The translations under genes and the position numbers were made by a program. A stretch of 64,000 nucleotides of DNA from a virus, in the IMG/VR virus record IMGVR_UViG_3300049846_002100, positions 1 through 64,000 of that record. One strand, written 5' to 3'. The notes beneath the pieces were generated by a model. It did no database searches. It had not been told where the DNA came from and saw nothing but the letters and a program-made list of their open reading frames with translations. Positions 38,227 through 63,389 of the stretch are shown here, one piece after another. Within the stretch, counting starts at the first letter, position 1. Every line of letters begins with the position of its first letter.

Positions 38227-38247
38227 AGATCGGTGTACGGAAGGGCT

Positions 38248-39408
38248 ATGCAAGTCGTCTACGCCCGCGAGCCCTTCCCGGGCCAAGTAACCAAGTCGAT
38301 CTTCCTGGCGGGCCCCACGCCCCGAGCGGTGGGTGTGCAAAGCTGGCGACCAGAGGCGCTCGCGACCCTGAAAGCTCTTGGGTACGACGGGCACGTGTTC
38401 GTCCCGGAGGATCGTGGAGGGAGGGTGAAGTTCGACTATGACGACCAAGTCGACTGGGAGGAAGATGGGCTTCAACGGGCGGACTGCATCGTCTTCTGGG
38501 TGCCGCGCGAGATGCAGACTATGCCGGCCCTCACCACAAACGATGAGTGGGGTGCATGGAAAGCCAGTGGTAAGGTGGTCTTTGGTGCCCCTCCCGAAGC
38601 CTACAAGGTCAAGTACCAGAGGCACTACGCGAGCAAACTCGGAGTCCCACAGAGCGAGACCCTAGAAGGTACCCTGAAGGCTGCGATCGAGAAGGTGGGC
38701 AACGGGGCGGCCCGTGAAGGCGGAGCCTGTCAGGTTCCGCTTCACGTATGGGCTCGACCGGACTTTCAGAATTGGCTCCAGACGCAGCAAAGCGCAGGCA
38801 ACCGTCTTGATGGGGCCCGCGTGGAATGGTCCTTCTTCGTCGGACCCCGACGACAGAAATGCTTCTTCCTCGCCCTACATGTCAATGTTCACGTCACGTC
38901 GGAACAAAGGAACAAGACGAACGAGATCGTTCTGTTTCGCCCCCACGTATCTTCTGTTCTTCTCTACCACCGCCGAGGACCGAAGCTCGAAGACACGGAG
39001 ATCGTCTTCGTCCGGGAGTTCAGATCACCGGCCAATACTTGGTCGGGTATGGTGCATGAACTTCCGGGAGGGTCCTCGCCGGACTCGACCAAGGATGCTC
39101 GGGCCACGGCAGCGGAGGAGCTTGAAGAGGAGACCGGTTTTCACCTCGATCCTGCCCGACTCGTGCAACACCACACTCGTCAGGTAGCCGCGACACTGTC
39201 CTCGTACAAGTCCACTCTCTTCGTGGCCGAGCTGTCCACCGACGAGATGCTTCAGATGAAGGCTCGTTCCGGGCAAGCCTTCGGGCTGCAAAGCGACTCC
39301 GAACGAACGTACGTCGAGGTCTCTACACTCGGCTCCGTCCTCACGGCCAACCTCGTCGATTGGGCCACGCTTGGCCTCATATTTCAGGCTCTCGGTCCCA
39401 CCGGATGA
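38248..39408 (+). CDS. Nucleoside 2-deoxyribosyltransferase-like / Nudix hydrolase fusion
   Basis: 386 residues from ATG 38248 (GGAAGG in front). Residues about 15-135 match the deoxyribosyltransferase-like family: SIFLAGPTPR at the start, then HVFVPEDRGGRVKFDYDDQV, LQRADCIVFWVPREMQTMPA and LTTNDEWGAW. The C-terminal 140 residues hold a Nudix fold: HELPGGSSPD then ATAAEELEEETGF, in which the core EExxEE is kept but the Arg of the box is Ala and the first Glu is replaced. It could remove or swap a base from a modified nucleoside and cleave a nucleoside diphosphate. The exact substrate is unknown. It is followed by a decayed endonuclease and the dNMP kinase. Confidence 0.75.
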   Translation: MQVVYAREPFPGQVTKSIFLAGPTPRAVGVQSWRPEALATLKALGYDGHVFVPEDRGGRVKFDYDDQVDWEEDGLQRADCIVFWVPREMQTMPALTTNDEWGAWKASGKVVFGAPPEAYKVKYQRHYASKLGVPQSETLEGTLKAAIEKVGNGAAREGGACQVPLHVWARPDFQNWLQTQQSAGNRLDGARVEWSFFVGPRRQKCFFLALHVNVHVTSEQRNKTNEIVLFRPHVSSVLLYHRRGPKLEDTEIVFVREFRSPANTWSGMVHELPGGSSPDSTKDARATAAEELEEETGFHLDPARLVQHHTRQVAATLSSYKSTLFVAELSTDEMLQMKARSGQAFGLQSDSERTYVEVSTLGSVLTANLVDWATLGLIFQALGPTG

Positions 39409-39424
39409 GTAGGTGGGTATAACT

Positions 39425-39675
39425 GGCACATCTGGATGCGGTAATACGTCACGCAAGGTCTTTCGAGATCACCGAAAATTATTGGGATTTCAGCGGGGCC
39501 GCGAAGGTCAGGGGAGGATCACCCCAATGCCAAGCTTTCAGCGGATGATGTTCGTACCATTAGAAGAGTGTACGGACAACCGGGGGTGACCTGCAAGAGC
39601 CTTGGGAAACAGTTCAGAGTCGATCCTAGTGTGGTACACGCGATTGTGACCAGGAAGATGTGGAGGTTTGCGTGA
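39425..39675 (+). pseudogene. Remnant of an HNH homing endonuclease (C-terminal part)
   Basis: No intact start or HNH core remains, but the fragments are recognisable. TSGCGNTSRKVF, then HRKLLGFQRGREGQG in one frame, resembles the zinc/HNH end of the CxNxxC...HL...NM...RGR family. In another frame GEDHPNAKLSADDVRTIRRV, YGQPGVTCKSLGKQFRVDPS and HAIVTRKMWRFA is the typical C-terminal helix-turn-helix. The TGA at 39673-39675 overlaps the GTG of the dNMP kinase. The piece fills the spacer between the Nudix fusion and the kinase and is most likely the eroded tail of an old insertion. Confidence 0.7.
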
Positions 39676-40439
39676 AACTATTGGGAATTTCGGGCTTAGC
39701 GGCTGCGGGAAAAGACACAACGTCTGACATCTTGGTCAGAGACCACGGGTGGGTGCGCGTCGCCCTGGCAGACCCTTTGAAACGAATTGCGAAGGACGTA
39801 TACGACTTCACCGACGAGCAACTGTGGGGTCCCTCTTCGGCGCGCAACGCTCCGGATCGCCGATACCCGAAGACCGAGCGGGCAAAAGCTTTCGCAAAGG
39901 AGACCACGGCCCTTCTGGACTCCGTTTGGAGGGAGGTGCTCATGAAGGAGTTTGGTGAGGAAGCGGCGAAGCACTTTCTCACCCCTCGGGAGTTCCTTCA
40001 GAAGCTCGGCACGGAGTGCGGCCGCGAGTGCTACGACAACACCTGGATCGACAAGACCATTCGCACGGCCGACGCTCTCCTCGGAGAGGCCGGGCCCGAT
40101 CTACGATACACGGCTCAACGTGGGTTGTATGAGCTTGGGCGGGCCCTCTCCTTCTCCGAAGAGGAGCAACGGGAAGCCGCAAGGGTGAAGGGTGTTGCAG
40201 TCCCGGATGTCCGGTTCAAGAACGAGATGGCCGCGATCCGCGATGCGGGGGGTCTGCTCATTCGTGTGAAGCGTACTGCCGCAACCAACACCGCATGGTT
40301 CTCGGTACATGCGAGTGAGAGAGAGCAGCTCGATGTACCGGACAGCTACTTCGACTATGTCGCACAAAACGACGGACCCCTTGAGGATCTGCCTCAAAGG
40401 GTCGCCGAGATGATGACTGTGCTTCGTTCTCGTCTGTAA
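39672..40439 (+). CDS. Deoxynucleoside monophosphate kinase
   Basis: 255 residues from the GTG at 39672, chosen because GGAGG lies 5 bases before it; an alternative GTG at 39660 has no such site. A P-loop is visible at the start (KLLGISGLAAAGKDTTSDIL), then VRVALADPLKRIAKDVYDF, LTPREFLQKLGTECGRECYD and VPDVRFKNEMAAIRDAGGLL, the hallmarks of phage dNMP kinases that convert dNMPs to dNDPs. It works with the ThyX-like, nucleotidase and HD genes in nucleotide supply. Its start overlaps the stop of the endonuclease remnant (GTGA). Confidence 0.88.
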   Translation: MKLLGISGLAAAGKDTTSDILVRDHGWVRVALADPLKRIAKDVYDFTDEQLWGPSSARNAPDRRYPKTERAKAFAKETTALLDSVWREVLMKEFGEEAAKHFLTPREFLQKLGTECGRECYDNTWIDKTIRTADALLGEAGPDLRYTAQRGLYELGRALSFSEEEQREAARVKGVAVPDVRFKNEMAAIRDAGGLLIRVKRTAATNTAWFSVHASEREQLDVPDSYFDYVAQNDGPLEDLPQRVAEMMTVLRSRL

Positions 40440-55335: not shown

Positions 55336-56008
55336 AATCATTTGTGTACTGCACCACCAACGTAAAGAGCGGGAAGCGCTACGTCGGCAAGGCTAATAAC
55401 CCGACTCAACGTTGGGTAGATCATATCCGTCGTGCCAGACAAAGTGCGGAGGGGTACCTCACCAACACCATACGCAAGTGGGGAGTTGAGTCATTTAAGT
55501 TAGAGGTCGTTCAAGAACACCCTTCGGAGAAAGCGGCTTTCGAAGCGGAGGCTGAACTCACTCGTGTTTGGGAAACAAACAACTCCCAGTAGGGGTACAA
55601 CCTTGCGGGAGGTGGTCGAGGCGGCGGCCCCTCAGAGATCGTCCTTGCCAAGCTTAGACGACCAAAGTCGGAAGAGACTAAGCTACGTATGCGACGCCCA
55701 AAGTCTCCTGAACATAGGCAAAAGCTGAGTGCCGTGAAGGTCAGCGATAAGAACCTCAATTCGGCAAACCGCTCTCGGAAGAGCATCGCACCAAGATCAG
55801 TCGTGCTAATACGGGGTCTGGTAACGGCTTCGCAGGGAGGAAACATGGGGACGCAACACGCGAACGCATGCGCGCGGCCCAACAATCCCCCGAAGTGAAA
55901 CAACGGGCTTCTGAGGGGGTGCGTGCGGCGTGGGTACGTCGAAAAGCAGTCCCAAAAGTCAACGACAGCATGCATTTCGAGTTGGCAGAACCCAATTCAG
56001 CGGTGTAA
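55332..56008 (+). pseudogene. Broken GIY-YIG homing endonuclease
   Basis: The GTG at 55332 opens a GIY-YIG domain (KSFVYCTTNVKSGKRYVGKA, TQRWVDHIRRARQ, KWGVESFKLEVVQEH). After TNNSQ an in-frame TAG (55590-55592) interrupts; the same frame continues GYNLAGGGRGGGPSE and NUMOD3-like SEETKLRMRRPKSPEHRQKL. A frameshift near 55775 is needed to continue EHRTKISRANTGSGNGFAGR, KHGDATRERMRAAQQSPEVK to a stop at 56008. One nonsense and one frameshift therefore inactivate it. It lies between the M15 endolysin and the histone-like gene. Confidence 0.8.
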
Positions 56009-56066
56009 GTTAGGGATCCACGCGATAGACACATGGGTGTCTGAGATCGCATCGGAGGAGATCAAA

Positions 56067-56267
56067 ATGGCAACTAAGAGCACCGCGAAGAAGCCGGCAA
56101 CCAAGAAGACCCCGGCAAAGAAGGCAACCTCGACGACGGTGAGGAAGACGACCCGAAGCGCGCCGAAGACGGCCAAGGCTCCGGCAAAGCGCTCGGCGGC
56201 GAAGAAGCCGGTGGCGCGAAAGGCCCCCGCGCGCAAGCCGGCGGCCACCTCGACCCCGAAGAGCTGA
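56067..56267 (+). CDS. Histone H1-like basic protein
   Basis: 66 residues from ATG 56067, preceded by GGAGGAG. Almost entirely Lys, Ala, Pro, Thr and Arg in KKPA/KKTPAKKA repeats (TKSTAKKPATKKTPAKKATS). It should bind and condense DNA without sequence preference, like histone H1 C-terminal tails. A GGTGTA motif occurs at 56002, overlapping the stop of the broken endonuclease. Confidence 0.8.
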   Translation: MATKSTAKKPATKKTPAKKATSTTVRKTTRSAPKTAKAPAKRSAAKKPVARKAPARKPAATSTPKS

Positions 56268-57635: not shown

Positions 57636-57958
57636 ACCGACGTGCCACCGGGACGCAAGATCCGGGGCATCGTACGTGACCTGATCGTCCTCTGAGGTTC
57701 GGAACGGTGTTCGGCGTAGCATGGCCACCCCACGTTGCATGAGTACGATTGCCGTAGAGGACAAACACCACGTCACGTTCCCAAATGACTTCTTCCGGCA
57801 CCCCGTACTTCGGCTTCATCGAGCTTCCCCGCGCTCACGATCTCACCGGCTCGGGCTCTCGGGGTGAAGTGAATGAGGCAATCCTCTGCCGAAGGCATGT
57901 AGAGGATCCGACCGCCGGACCACGTCTCTTCGCCCGTGGGCACAAGAGGCGAAGTCAT
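57619..57958 (-). pseudogene. Frameshifted or overlapping gene after the nitrilase
   Basis: An ATG at 57958 overlaps the nitrilase stop (ATGA), a sign of a real coupled gene. It encodes TWSGGRILYMPSAEDCLIHF, TPRARAGEIVSAGKL and soon stops at 57773. A second frame then takes over from an ATG at 57819 with GGGGAAG in front: MKPKYGVPEEVIWERDVVFV LYGNRTHATWGGHA. Together they look like one protein of the small ART/DarT-like or toxin-like HFT...I..G.L type, broken near 57820, or else two overlapping genes. Function is unknown; the ART idea is only a resemblance. Confidence 0.4.
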
Positions 57959-58755
57959 GGGATGTCCGCGTAGACGATGCAGTCCTCGCTCCAGCGAAGG
58001 CCATCACAGTGAACCTTGCCGGAGGGCTCGATCACGCAGATACCACCCTCCCCGAAGTTGTTGTTGGCCTCTTGGCCGTAGCGGTTTGACACCACGAAGG
58101 TGACCTTATTGTCCTCGGCGAACTCCATCCAGGAGACAGCGGGGAAGCCTCCGTCCCCGAAGTTGGCCGACATGCACACGATGTCCGCATCACCTGGATC
58201 GTAGAAAGAGGACCACTTGTCGTCCTTCTTGTCCCGCACGTCACGACAGATGAGAAGGCCGACCTTGCGTGGCTTCCCGTCGCCGAGGTCCGTGGTCATG
58301 ATCGCCGGGTTGGAGCGCCCCGCGGCAGCCCACAGGTAATCATTGCCCCAACGGTTCACCTTGCGGTACGTCTCGAACATGAGGTTCGGGGCGAGGATGA
58401 CCTGGCTGTTATAGTACGTCTCACTCTGAACTTGTTGCTCGACCATGCCCCACACGATGTGCACGTCGTACTTGAGTACGAGCGCCTGCATGATCCGCAT
58501 CGTTTGACATGGATCCATGGGTGGTGCGAACTTCGTCTGGTGGAAGACGAACGCATCCGGGGTGATCAACTCTCCGAACTTGATCGCGTCATTCAGCCCC
58601 ATGAGAGAGTAGCCAGTCGTCGCCAGCTCGGGGAACACGATGAGCTGAGCCCCTTTACCAGCAGCCTCCTCAACGAACTTGACCATCTTCTGAAGGTTGC
58701 CGCGCTTGTCCCCGAAGACAGGGGCAAACTGCACCGTGGCGATACGCACGCTCAT
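57955..58755 (-). CDS. Carbon-nitrogen hydrolase (nitrilase superfamily)
   Basis: 266 residues from ATG 58755, which overlaps the preceding stop (ATGA). The Glu-Lys-Cys triad is in place: QLIVFPELATTGYS (Glu43), ETYRKVNRWGNDY (Lys132) and VGLLICRDVRD (Cys170). GFPAVSWMEFAEDNKVTFVV, SNRYGQEANNNFGEGGICVI is the typical C-terminal half. Such enzymes hydrolyse amides or nitriles, including glutamine amidases of NAD synthesis and N-carbamoylputrescine amidase; the substrate cannot be told. Phage copies are unusual. Confidence 0.88.
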   Translation of the reverse strand: MSVRIATVQFAPVFGDKRGNLQKMVKFVEEAAGKGAQLIVFPELATTGYSLMGLNDAIKFGELITPDAFVFHQTKFAPPMDPCQTMRIMQALVLKYDVHIVWGMVEQQVQSETYYNSQVILAPNLMFETYRKVNRWGNDYLWAAAGRSNPAIMTTDLGDGKPRKVGLLICRDVRDKKDDKWSSFYDPGDADIVCMSANFGDGGFPAVSWMEFAEDNKVTFVVSNRYGQEANNNFGEGGICVIEPSGKVHCDGLRWSEDCIVYADIP

Positions 58756-60476
58756 GCGGCCCTCCCGGCCCAAACAAGGGCTGCCTGTTTGATCACCCAC
58801 CCAACGTCAGAGCCTACGTCGGTTTTGAGCTGATCCAACATAGAACGCTTCGGCCTCTCGGGACGCTCTGCCTTCCGGGTCAGGAACAAGCGAAGCTCGT
58901 CACCAGATGGCCGCTTGCCCGCCTGCCATTCAGCCAACAGGCGCCGGCACAAACGCAGATCCGTAGGGTCGTTCGCATCGAAGTAGCGGAGCGTATCCTC
59001 GACATCGAAGCCAAGGTCTTGGCTCATCCGGTCGAAGAGCTTGGCCTCCCCAAATTTCATGTCCGCGAGGTCATCGACCTCCTTCAAAAGAAGTCGGACA
59101 ACACCAGGGGACTTGACCTCAACAAGGTCCCCAAACTCTTCAATGGCCCTTGCTCCGGTCTCCTCCGGGACGATGAGGCTGTCATCGGCCGCCTGTAGGA
59201 GGGCCGCGACTACACCTTGCTCGTCGGTCACCTTACGCCCAAACGTGGCCTCAACCACCTGCACGAGGGGCTTCCAATCGCCCCTCTGCACGTCGTGTAG
59301 GAAATCTACGACTGCGGACGCCCATCGCGTCCGTTTGTCCGGGAAATTCACCATCTCGGGCTCCGGGAACCGCTTCTTGGGGTCAAGGGCGCCGGTGGGA
59401 AGGCCCGTCGTGCCCACCACCTTCTCCAGGAACCCCTTGCTCGTCGCAGCCTTCTCAAAGTCCGCAAGCAGACGGTCATACCCGTCTCGAATTGCCGCGA
59501 CCCCTGCATCCACCAAGAAGTGGAGGTGATCGTAGCGGTCCGTGAAGGTCAAGTATGGCGCATACTTCTCCCGCGCCTTGGACTTCATGGCGTCGGCTTG
59601 GGCGCGAGCCGTGTCGACGAAGCGTGCACGGTACCCATCAAGATCCTCATATATCCGGACGACGACATCCGAAGGAGCGCGACCCTGAAAAACCTTCGTC
59701 AACGCTGCCCGTATCTCCTGGAGATGGGCCTTGCGCTCGCGGTTGTTGCGGCGAGAGATCACCGCCTTTACCACGTCCATGACGCCGGTGTGATCCGTCA
59801 CTGTTAGCCCATTCTTCTGAGCGATTCGGCGGATGGCCAGACAGCCTTCAAGGGCCTTGTTTCCTGCCTCTTTAGCCGGCGTCCGCATGTCCAGCATGTT
59901 GAGCATGCGGATAGGCTCATTCAACGCGTACATGTGTTGGATGATCGGGAAGTCATCCCCGGTACCAGCCGCTTGGAGGAACTCGCGAATCGCGGCCTCC
60001 AACGCCACCAGCTCATCACCTTCCGACTGTCCGATACCCCTCGTCTTAAGGCCAACCTGACGACGCCGAAGCTCTTTGATCTGGCGGTTGATCAGACTCT
60101 CAAGCGAGGACAGGTCCGTCTTAAAGGATATATGCAGGAAGTTGACGATGCACTCGGAGCCGATCAGAAGGGTCTTCTTTCGACCCTTGTTCAGGATAGG
60201 GAAGTTCCAGGTGATGGGGTGCTTTCCGCATAGTTCGCAGGTAGACCCCTCATCCCGGAAGGGAGCGCCCTTCCGGGACCACTCCTTGATCGCTTCCTTC
60301 AGTTCCTTGCTGACGGACTCGGACAAGAGCTTGTCCTTGATCGTCTGCCAGTAAACTTCGCTCGTGTTCGGCGGCCGGAGCTTTAGCTCTTCCAGGTCCC
60401 GCAGGGCCCTCGCAACCTCGGGGAGGTCGTTGATGGTCGCCCCAAGCGGGCCTCTGGTGGCGCAGATCAGGAACAT
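58752..60476 (-). CDS. Hypothetical protein with Cys-rich motif, 574 residues
   Basis: Start ATG 60476 with GAGGAGAG in front. Residues about 75-110 contain STCELCGKHPITWNFPILNK, then KTLLIGSECIVNFL, a CxxC...GSxC pattern suggesting a metal site. The rest is helical and includes SSLESLINRQIKELRRRQVG and RRLLAEWQAGKRPSGDELRL. It overlaps the nitrilase gene by ATGA and so is likely cotranscribed with it. It contains a perfect 11-bp hairpin (60253-60278). Function unknown. Confidence 0.65.
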   Translation of the reverse strand: MFLICATRGPLGATINDLPEVARALRDLEELKLRPPNTSEVYWQTIKDKLLSESVSKELKEAIKEWSRKGAPFRDEGSTCELCGKHPITWNFPILNKGRKKTLLIGSECIVNFLHISFKTDLSSLESLINRQIKELRRRQVGLKTRGIGQSEGDELVALEAAIREFLQAAGTGDDFPIIQHMYALNEPIRMLNMLDMRTPAKEAGNKALEGCLAIRRIAQKNGLTVTDHTGVMDVVKAVISRRNNRERKAHLQEIRAALTKVFQGRAPSDVVVRIYEDLDGYRARFVDTARAQADAMKSKAREKYAPYLTFTDRYDHLHFLVDAGVAAIRDGYDRLLADFEKAATSKGFLEKVVGTTGLPTGALDPKKRFPEPEMVNFPDKRTRWASAVVDFLHDVQRGDWKPLVQVVEATFGRKVTDEQGVVAALLQAADDSLIVPEETGARAIEEFGDLVEVKSPGVVRLLLKEVDDLADMKFGEAKLFDRMSQDLGFDVEDTLRYFDANDPTDLRLCRRLLAEWQAGKRPSGDELRLFLTRKAERPERPKRSMLDQLKTDVGSDVGWVIKQAALVWAGRAA

Positions 60477-60512: not shown

Positions 60513-60902
60513 CTAAACGGTGTCGCTCGGGAACTGCCGGCGCCAGTGCGGGCTTGAAGTACCCCGGAACGTCTTCGGGAGCCGAGCCACGGCCTGCATC
60601 GTCGCATGAGGAACCGGGCCTACTCGACCGTTGGGGAACCGGACCTGGTAGACCTCGTTCGGGGCGATAACTCCTCGCCCCGTGATGAAGATCGAATCCA
60701 AGATCCGCTCGATGTTTGGGATGTCGGCCCGACAACGGGCAAACCGGGTGGTCCCCAAGGTGATCGTATCCAGCACCTCCAAGGTGTTGAACACGATGTT
60801 CGCCGTGCTCGCGGTCTTGAGGATCAGGTTGGCCGCGTCGGTCACCGTCTCCAGATTGCCACGCATTTGCACCCCAAAGTGCACCCATGTCTTCGCTGTC
60901 AT
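60513..60902 (-). CDS. Hypothetical protein, 129 residues
   Basis: ATG 60902 overlaps the ThyX-like stop (ATGA). MTAKTWVHFGVQMRGNLETV TDAANLILKTASTANIVFNT and IERILDSIFITGRGVIAPNE VYQVRFPNGRVGPVPHATMQ suggest a small alpha/beta domain. Likely cotranscribed with the ThyX-like gene; function unknown. Confidence 0.6.
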   Translation of the reverse strand: MTAKTWVHFGVQMRGNLETVTDAANLILKTASTANIVFNTLEVLDTITLGTTRFARCRADIPNIERILDSIFITGRGVIAPNEVYQVRFPNGRVGPVPHATMQAVARLPKTFRGTSSPHWRRQFPSDTV

Positions 60903-62230
60903 GTCTTCACCACGATGGTTTGAGCGCCTCTCCGAACATCCCAGTCATCCGAGTCCACATCGACGTGGATCGGCACTTCAGGGAGAGCGTCTTGGAACTG
61001 AGCGGCCATCCGATGAATGGCTTGGCGAAGCGTCGCGTGAACCGTCTTCGCCGATCGGATCTCCAGGACGTAGACCGCCGCAGGCAACGCGTACGTCACC
61101 TGGCACGGCATCCTGAATCCTAGCGCCGTGTAGTATTGGCGAACAACAGGGTCATCGGTGACCTGTTCGATCTCGTACGTCTGCTGGACGATGAGATCCA
61201 TCGCTGTCTGCGCCAAGTACGAGGGGAGCTGGTTGATGTACCAGGACTCGAATCCGTATTTCGTCGTGAGCAGCGGCATCCGGCAGACGCCGTTGCGGTG
61301 GCGTTGTATATCACGGAAGGAGCCGAAGTCGAGAAGGAACCGCCAGGTGACCTGGCCGAGCCCTGACATGAAGTGCGGGAGCACGACGCCGCGAGGCCGA
61401 GTTGAGATCAGCTCGGAGAACTTGGCCAGCTCGCTGTGGTCGACAGTCGAGCCGAACTCTGGGCCGTCCGTTGGGAGGTAGGTGCACGTCTCAGCTAGCC
61501 TTCTCTCCCATGCTTCTCGTGCGGCCTGCCCTTCCGTCTTCCTCACACCGGTCACGGACGGGAGGCTCGCGTCGAGACCGCTCGACGGGTACTGCTCGTG
61601 GAGAAGCGATCGCAGTGTGTTGCCGATGCGCCGGATCTCCTCCGAGGGGTGGTTCGTCAGGTGCGTGAGATGGTCCCCGGCCTGACGAAGGTTCGAGTGC
61701 CAGGAGAGCTGCGTGGTGATGCCGGCGGGTAGAAACGCACGCCGGATATCGAACGACCTAGCGTTCACCGCGCGCTCGTAGTTCTCACGCGTCTTCTCTG
61801 TCTTCAAGTCCTCGCTCGTCGGTGGGTACTTTTCCCGGATGAGTTGGACGGTGGGCTCGTGGCTCGCCTTATAGAACTCCATCCATCGACGGAGGATCTC
61901 ACCAGAGCGGGAGGAGCCGACAGGGTCCTCGATCCGTCGCAAGCCCATCTTCACGTACCGAGAGGACGTTTCCTGGCCATTGTACAATGGCCAATCCTGG
62001 ATGGCTTTGGCCGCCAGCATGCTCACGTCTTCGATAAAGATCGTTGTACTCCCACAGTCGGCGATGCTCTTGTGACCATAACCCACGACGAAGTTCTCCA
62101 TGAACTTGCCGGATCCAACCCGTCGAACTTTCTCCAGGTGTGTGTCTACCGACTCCGCGCTCCGCGAGTACAATGCCTGCAACATTGCGACATCTTCAGG
62201 GTTTAGATCATCGATAACTCTGAGCTTCAT
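60899..62230 (-). CDS. thyX-like: Tandem ThyX-like (flavin-dependent thymidylate synthase) protein
   Basis: 443 residues, about twice a normal ThyX. The N-terminal half has the ThyX pattern FVVGYGHKSIADCGSTTIFI, EDVSMLAAKA and NGQETSSRYVKM (about 77-95), but where RHR belongs it reads IQDW. The C-terminal half has TWRFLLDFGSFRDIQRHRNG VCRMPLL (RHR at 310-312) without the usual trailing Ser. So the signature RHRx7S is split between the halves. It may methylate dUMP, or a modified dUMP, with flavin and folate; activity is plausible only if the halves cooperate. The neighbours are a 5'-nucleotidase and, further off, a dNMP kinase. Confidence 0.78.
   Translation of the reverse strand: MKLRVIDDLNPEDVAMLQALYSRSAESVDTHLEKVRRVGSGKFMENFVVGYGHKSIADCGSTTIFIEDVSMLAAKAIQDWPLYNGQETSSRYVKMGLRRIEDPVGSSRSGEILRRWMEFYKASHEPTVQLIREKYPPTSEDLKTEKTRENYERAVNARSFDIRRAFLPAGITTQLSWHSNLRQAGDHLTHLTNHPSEEIRRIGNTLRSLLHEQYPSSGLDASLPSVTGVRKTEGQAAREAWERRLAETCTYLPTDGPEFGSTVDHSELAKFSELISTRPRGVVLPHFMSGLGQVTWRFLLDFGSFRDIQRHRNGVCRMPLLTTKYGFESWYINQLPSYLAQTAMDLIVQQTYEIEQVTDDPVVRQYYTALGFRMPCQVTYALPAAVYVLEIRSAKTVHATLRQAIHRMAAQFQDALPEVPIHVDVDSDDWDVRRGAQTIVVKT
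61974..61993. repeat. Perfect 20-bp palindrome within the ThyX-like gene
   Basis: TGGCCATTGTACAATGGCCA lies in the codons for DWPLYNG, exactly where the missing RHR of the N-terminal half should be. It could be a recognition site or a chance result of codon choice. Confidence 0.8.
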
Positions 62231-62785
62231 TCAGGCACTCCCGGGGTTAATATGATTGAAAATCTTCCGAATAAGGCTCAAGAACTCATCGTACGAACGA
62301 GAGCCCTTGCAGTTATTACAATCCGTGCAACAAGGCACACAGTTGCTCAGCACGTACCCAATACTGTTGTTTTTACGGTCGATGCCATTAAACCTATATG
62401 ACGTGTAGCCCTTGTTGTTGAAAACGATTGTTCGACTTGGGGCCGCGCCGCAATAATGGCAAGCTGACACAGTCAAACAGTGGAATTCATCCAAGTTCAA
62501 TCGAAAGAAGAGCCCCCGCTTCTTTGCACTGTGGTGGTATCTAGATATTAACGCTTTCATACCGCTTACACCATCCGGCGCCCTGCGGTTCTGATTTGTT
62601 TCTCGACTCCAACACCCACAGGAAACACACCGTCCCGAGCTAAGAGTGGCTGCGCTAACTTGATGTTCGGCCCCACAATCACACAAACATGCCCATCGAG
62701 CGCTACCCCCACGCTCTTTACCAACGCGATTGGTAACCATAAGCCGGCCAAACCGCTGGCCAGTTAGATCAACGAAGCGTCCCAT
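62231..62785 (-). CDS. HNH homing endonuclease with N-terminal zinc module
   Basis: 184 residues. An N-terminal DNA-binding module, VDLTGQRFGRLMVTNRVGKE, WACLCDCGAEHQVSAATLSS, CVSCGCW, is typical of AP2-like HNH homing enzymes. The nuclease core has CHYCGAAPSRT, NGIDRKNNSIGYVLSNCVPC and CTDCNNCKGSRSYDEFLSLI. It is noticeably richer in A+T than its neighbours, as expected of a recent arrival. It sits between the nucleotidase and ThyX-like genes, ending directly before the ThyX ATG (TGAATG). Likely active. Confidence 0.88.
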   Translation of the reverse strand: MGRFVDLTGQRFGRLMVTNRVGKERGGSARWACLCDCGAEHQVSAATLSSGRCVSCGCWSRETNQNRRAPDGVSGMKALISRYHHSAKKRGLFFRLNLDEFHCLTVSACHYCGAAPSRTIVFNNKGYTSYRFNGIDRKNNSIGYVLSNCVPCCTDCNNCKGSRSYDEFLSLIRKIFNHINPGSA

Positions 62786-62795
62786 CACGCCCCTT

Positions 62796-63389
62796 TCACT
62801 TCAGGGGACACAAGGCGCGCACCCCGTTGATCACCTCTTGCCAATTCGCGACACGAACGCCGATGTTTTCGGATCGCGTATGGGGGTAATCCCACAGCAT
62901 GCCGGTGCCGTGCGGGTGGTGTTCCAACCACTTCTCGATGTTCAGAGGCTTGTCATCGACGAGCACATCACCCACGACTACATACTTGGCCGCGGTGTGG
63001 ACCGTGTGAGGTATGTCGATCTGAAAGTGCTCGCGAAGCCAGAGTGTTCGTTCATACACCCACGTTTCCGTGTGGTACGGCGAGGTTACGACGTAGACAT
63101 CGCAAAAAGACTGAAGCTCGCGGACTGCCTCGACGGCCCCTTCGGTCGGCTTGATGGACCAACACCATCCTGGCTTTTCCAGCTCTCCGAGGACGGTGTC
63201 TCTGAACTCTGCGGGGATGGCGGCGAATAGGTCCCACGACGAGAAGTCGTGAATGGCCCAAGCCCGCTTCGTGTGGTGTGAGAGTATCTGAAGAAACGGC
63301 GTGGTGAAGTCCCCAAGGACATCATCAACGTCCAGGAGCACCCTCTTCCGAGCCCGACTTCGGACAGTCCTGTGAGTCGCTTGGTGCAT
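62796..63389 (-). CDS. 5'-(deoxyribo)nucleotidase, NT5C-like
   Basis: 197 residues. The HAD motif I is RVLLDVDDVLGDFTTPFL; CDVYVVTSPYHTETWVYERT gives motif II and GDVLVDDKPLNIEKWLEHHP gives motif IV. This is the family that removes phosphate from dNMPs. Next to the ThyX-like gene it could tune dUMP/dTMP pools, or discard an unwanted nucleotide while a modified base is used. The homing endonuclease inserted downstream separates the two. Confidence 0.85.
   Translation of the reverse strand: MHQATHRTVRSRARKRVLLDVDDVLGDFTTPFLQILSHHTKRAWAIHDFSSWDLFAAIPAEFRDTVLGELEKPGWCWSIKPTEGAVEAVRELQSFCDVYVVTSPYHTETWVYERTLWLREHFQIDIPHTVHTAAKYVVVGDVLVDDKPLNIEKWLEHHPHGTGMLWDYPHTRSENIGVRVANWQEVINGVRALCPLK

Follow-up and report, generated by a model that had tools for sequence, protein, structure and literature searches.

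The window, the 64,000-nucleotide stretch of viral DNA analysed here (the first 64 kb of an IMG/VR virus record of 88,941 bases), encodes a protein of 443 amino acids on its minus strand, in which two domains of ThyX, the flavin-dependent thymidylate synthase, lie in a single open frame (60899-62230) and the catalytic signature of ThyX is divided between them. Split ThyX is an old and common variant, present in dozens of phages and in the chromosomes of soil bacteria, and not a private oddity of this virus. Judged from its sequence, the two-domain protein is most probably a thymidylate synthase.

The gene and its divided signature

Residues were mapped by alignment with M. tuberculosis ThyX, whose numbering is used for three-letter residue names. 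The features of the gene are as follows.

60899-62230, minus strand: two-domain ThyX gene, 443 codons plus stop
61586-62230, minus strand: N-terminal ThyX domain, residues 1-215 (Pfam Thy1, PHROG 36506)
62066-62074, minus strand: H53 and S55, corresponding to His69 and Ser71 (alignment)
61988-61996, minus strand: D79-W80-P81 in the place of RHR, which the N-domain has lost (alignment)
61955-61981, minus strand: N84-GQETSSR-Y92, in which S89, R91, and Y92 correspond to Ser105, Arg107, and Tyr108 (dUMP contacts, lid; alignment)
61739-61741, minus strand: R164, corresponding to Arg172, retained in N-halves and lost in C-halves (alignment)
60902-61435, minus strand: C-terminal ThyX domain, residues 266-443 with an approximate boundary (profile comparison with bacterial C-halves; AF2 model)
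61295-61303, minus strand: R310-H311-R312, corresponding to RHR 95-97 (flavin contacts; alignment)
61055-61057, minus strand: R392, corresponding to Arg199 (dUMP contact from the RHR-giving subunit; alignment)

The N-half contains AIQDWPLYNGQETSSRYVKM, with NGQETSSRY at residues 84-92 and DWP at residues 79-81. The C-half contains GSFRDIQRHRNGVCRMPLL, with RHR at residues 310-312, L320 in the place of Ser105, and T322 in the place of Arg107. The earlier note had described a tandem ThyX-like protein with its signature split over two halves, the first keeping NGQETSSRY without RHR and the second keeping RHR without the trailing serine; the 443-residue frame, these residues, and the tally of related proteins given below confirm this description in each part.

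Identification as ThyX

Pfam Thy1 (PF02511) matched only residues 5-215 of the window protein (E=1.8e-13), the N-half scoring above the curated cut-off (51.2 vs 24.8 bits), and PHROG 36506, a phage thymidylate synthase family of 491 positions, matched the same half. The C-half gave no match in the Pfam search; it is too diverged for Pfam, yet it is identified as ThyX by profile comparison. The whole protein fell below the cut-off of the NCBIfam thyX equivalog TIGR02170 (20.7 vs 87.9 bits), neither domain contains a continuous RHR-x7-S signature, RHR being confined to the C-half and the serine to the N-half, and a single-sequence search of PDB sequences returned only noise.

The AF2 model of the monomer (pLDDT 92, pTM 0.89) had ThyX structures as its top PDB matches, with TM scores by target of about 0.5-0.6, and a protein of 461 amino acids as its best match among predicted viral structures (TM 0.87). 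The order of strands and helices repeats along this model, which supports the C-domain. When the ligand residues of the active site were examined, counterparts of RHR, Arg199, Ser105, Arg107, Tyr108, Ser71, and Arg190 were all present, and Arg87 was absent. The window protein is thus recognized as ThyX by Pfam, by fold, and by residue content, and is not recognized by the continuous signature or the NCBIfam equivalog. Annotation by motifs can therefore overlook, or rank too low, the thymidylate synthases of many Acidobacteriota and large phages, as the equivalog did here.

Distribution and origin of the split

Scanning viral contigs with the single protein gave no matches; with an alignment of phage homologues as the query, 80 loci were found, and the closest shares about 60% identity. 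In Vibrio phages BONAISHI and Yong, homologues align with 94-98% of the window protein, and proteins of similar length were found in Microcystis phage LMM01 and Tunturiibacter phage Tunturi_5. In bacterial and archaeal genomes at least 594 loci were matched, and the best 80 of them all belong to Acidobacteriota. A Pfam Thy1 match was present in 113 of 149 Acidobacteriota genomes and two matches in 79 of those 113; nearly all listed pairs adjoin in one frame, mostly of 480-600 amino acids.

The tally covered 186 two-domain proteins: the window protein, 66 from phages, and 119 from Acidobacteriota, the latter named GQE (80), EKS (28), and SEQ (11) types after their N-half motifs. All 186 showed the split, that is, an N-half with S-x-R-Y/F and no RHR and a C-half with no in-register S-x-R-Y, so that the split is not a matter of chance; because the phage and GQE sets were retrieved by way of the N-half motif, selection bears on all of their results except those on RHR. 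RHR was present in the C-half of 185 of the 186 proteins, the sole exception being RQR in L017 (L017:5971-7302). A single EKS-type protein was flagged by the script for S-x-R-Y in its C-half, and this motif was out of register. The Pfam search supplied the EKS and SEQ sets, and the split was seen in 40 of 40 loci fetched from it; an SEQ-type protein in L256, beyond the 186, shows the same split by eye.

Profile comparison of phage and EKS-type bacterial proteins matched N-halves with N-halves (E=4e-30) and C-halves with C-halves (E=7e-16), and the phage and EKS comparisons of N-halves with C-halves gave no match. The bacterial C-halves also matched single-domain ThyX (E=5e-24 and 6e-18). With the SEQ type, the phage N-halves matched (E=2.5e-9) and the comparison of C-halves was not significant. 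Since like halves match across phages and bacteria, the phage, GQE, and EKS types, at least, probably descend from one ancient fusion. A tree of 64 proteins, with long branches and some unsure placements, put the window protein within a fully supported phage group, nearest to the protein of L006, and the next group comprised acidobacterial GQE proteins together with that of Tunturi_5.

Catalytic residues and subunit roles

According to a review of ThyX crystal structures, each active site is built from three subunits: subunit A gives RHR (95-97) and Arg199, subunit B gives Arg190 and Ser71, which contacts FAD, and subunit C gives Arg87, Ser105, Arg107, and the lid residue Tyr108 (PMC6514825). 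Among the two-domain proteins, every group retains RHR and Arg199 in its C-halves, and the phage N-halves have lost both. Conversely, Ser105, Arg107, Tyr108, Arg172, and Ser/Thr71 were retained in the N-halves (S89, R91, Y92, R164, and S55 in the window), and Ser105, Arg107, and Arg172 were lost from the C-halves. The catalytic residues are invariant among proteins down to about 20% identity. The second type of site has lost its elements rather than exchanging them for a new conserved set.

The fit of this partition to the subunit roles is imperfect: Arg190 (R182 in the window N-half) is retained in only half of the phage N-halves, and many EKS-type bacterial proteins have it in each of their halves; the phage proteins have lost Arg87; and Arg199 is often still present in bacterial N-halves. 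An aligned serine at position 71 was seen in 18 of 66 phage C-halves, in the poorly aligned stretch upstream of RHR. The suggestion in the earlier note that a fused pair could retain one composite type of site is nevertheless well supported by the mapping of these residues onto the published subunit contributions.

Evidence on function

In nine of nine genomes of Acidobacteriaceae, Thy1 matched nothing but the two halves of the split protein, and a ThyA match was absent from seven and partial in two. As the sole ThyX of all nine, in seven of them without any ThyA match, the split protein is most probably a thymidylate synthase, and most of the genomes examined appear to have no other de novo enzyme of this kind. 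In a published table, Acidobacteria have ThyX in six of six cases and ThyA in none of six (PMC5954106). All nine genomes also encode thymidine kinase, so thymidine salvage is possible.

No ThyA was found in the 37 phage records carrying the split gene, the window's record among them, although these records may be fragments. dCMP deaminase was found in 12 of the 37, and not in the window's own record; in Tunturi_5 its gene adjoins the split gene, with dUTPase two genes further. Thymidylate kinase is present in phages BONAISHI and Yong. Thymidylate synthesis is the simplest reading of these sequences.

Beyond the window, the record ends in a FolD gene (methylene-THF dehydrogenase/cyclohydrolase; 88197-88941 of the record, L088:13197-13941, minus strand, E=8.5e-64) that is truncated there. 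FolD as a supply of methylene-THF was dropped, as the gene lies at a cut end and occurs in none of 36 relatives; it may be host DNA, and the FolD matches in the phage collection look like stray bacterial DNA.

Genes around thyX

The earlier note had read a nucleotidase, a dNMP kinase, and a deoxyribosyltransferase-Nudix gene as neighbours of thyX hinting at a modified-nucleotide pathway. The nucleotidase does lie near thyX (62796-63389). The dNMP kinase (39660-40439) and deoxyribosyltransferase-Nudix (38233-39408) genes exist as described but are on the opposite, plus strand and more than 20 kb from thyX, so that for two of the three genes there is no neighbourhood. Among the gene neighbourhoods of 21 relatives, no modification enzyme recurred near the split-ThyX locus; NUDIX and NAD-salvage genes recurred weakly.

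Directly before the thyX start codon ends the gene for a protein of 185 amino acids (62231-62788, minus strand) that resembles an HNH homing endonuclease by eye and has no Pfam match. On the other side, a 129-residue open reading frame of unknown kind (60513-60902, minus strand) overlaps the thyX stop by 4 bases and is likely co-translated with it. A carbon-nitrogen hydrolase gene lies two genes on from thyX (57955-58800, minus strand; Pfam E=1.1e-24), and such a gene is also found near the thyX locus of one relative. A histone-H1-like protein rich in Lys, Ala, and Pro is encoded at 55923-56267 on the plus strand. Inteins (Pfam Intein_splicing, LAGLIDADG) occur in an AAA ATPase and an SNF2-type helicase (L087:5156-8131 and L088:5023-9255, minus strand; L087:9513-13760, minus strand), and DNA polymerase A likewise appears by eye to be split by an intein.

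Proposed mechanism and alternatives

We consider it probable that two chains of fused ThyX domains form a pseudo-tetramer with two live and two dead composite sites and that the product is dTMP. Following an ancestral duplication and fusion, the ThyX tetramer would have given up two of its four sites. The N-domain would have kept the parts of the partner subunits that hold dUMP and the flavin phosphate (S89, R91, Y92, and S55, also R164), and the C-domain those of the flavin/RHR subunit (R310-H311-R312 and R392). With the C-domains of the dimer as subunits A and D and the N-domains as B and C, the A/D sites would be complete, with one C-domain and two N-domains contributing to each, and the B/C sites almost empty. 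Fusion would let two of the four sites go, and complementary loss of the kind observed is therefore expected. We infer the dimer assembly, the chain that supplies each domain, the use of FAD and dUMP, and the formation of dTMP for phage DNA.

A thymidylate synthase with another arrangement of its sites, either a site made of the N- and C-domains of one chain or a higher oligomer, seems unlikely. The AF2 monomer places both domains confidently, and Arg190 departs from the simple partition; however, published ThyX sites require three subunits, and the B-type serine and the C-type serine, arginine, and tyrosine all lie in the N-half, which calls for two N-domains per site. That the protein is a non-catalytic leftover, or a pseudo-enzyme with a regulatory or structural role, is the most improbable of the readings considered. 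Neither half alone has a complete motif and the C-half is very diverged, but a dead enzyme would not retain catalytic residues unchanged at the identities noted above, and the split protein is the only ThyX in many bacteria.

The earlier note had also proposed that the fused pair could gain another substrate. It is quite unlikely that the composite site adds a group other than methyl to dUMP or uses another pyrimidine, making for example 5-hydroxymethyl-dUMP, for a modified-base genome, and slightly less likely still that the phage branch has moved from methylation to another modification of dUMP at C5, supplying a modified pyrimidine for phage DNA. The idea draws on the nucleotidase close to the gene, on the two nucleotide-metabolism genes elsewhere in the record, and on Bacillus phage SP-15, which has a hypermodified base and two Thy1 proteins, one of which, the 413-residue gp130, its authors guess to be a hydroxymethyl-dUMP synthase (PMC5977210). 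Against it, the live site keeps all canonical ligand residues except Arg87, the ordinary dUMP, flavin, and lid residues among them; the abandoned sites acquired no conserved set of their own; gp130 is not detectably close (hhalign probability 3%; TM 0.38); the loci of the 21 relatives share no modification gene; the authors of the BONAISHI genome found no DNA-modification gene (PMC6207643); and the close bacterial kin are chromosomal and appear to be, in most genomes examined, the sole de novo source of thymidylate. A gained substrate is thus unsupported, and we retain the pseudo-tetramer making dTMP as the preferred reading.

Comparison with known systems

A literature search, outside which most subscription papers lay, found no paper describing a tandem, double, fused, or split ThyX. 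The active chlamydial ThyX (CT632) is unusually long and may be of the split two-domain kind.

The proteins of BONAISHI (ORF269), Yong, LMM01 (gp020, PHROG 36506), and Tunturi_5 share the architecture and the split of the window protein at about 23-30% identity and are annotated as thymidylate synthase or hypothetical; IMG/VR relatives are closer, at up to about 60% identity. In Acidobacteriota (Edaphobacter, Terriglobus, Silvibacterium, and others), the two-domain Thy1 proteins have about 480-560 amino acids and share with the window protein the order of halves, the split, and profile matches between like halves, with about 25% identity to it in Acidobacteriaceae. Unlike in the window protein, both of their halves are recognized by Pfam, and they fall into several N-motif classes.

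SP-15 gp130 is likewise a phage Thy1 protein of 413 amino acids with a weak structural match, but it shows no significant profile match to the window protein, and SP-15 has a separate ThyX (gp9) besides its hypermodified base. By eye, gp130 (L269:25670-26911) has SNR in its first half and RQH in its second and is perhaps a remote split ThyX; its gene adjoins that of an acyl-carrier-protein reductase, and SP-15 is a dihydroxypentyluracil phage.

Ordinary ThyX (PF02511; M. tuberculosis 3gwc/2af6, T. maritima TM0449) shares with the window protein the fold and the Thy1 profile of the N-half, and the places of RHR, Arg199, Ser105, Arg107, and Tyr108 are all present, once per window chain. It differs in that the window protein has two domains per chain with the signature divided between them, and in that two live sites are predicted per four domains instead of four. 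The split proteins thus offer a natural experiment in which a symmetric many-site enzyme would have turned asymmetric: the parts that serve two of its four sites persist, and those used by the other two alone are mostly gone. Within one gene, a ThyX site can be mutated on its RHR side and on its dUMP side independently, and the prediction of one working site per two-domain chain is measurable.
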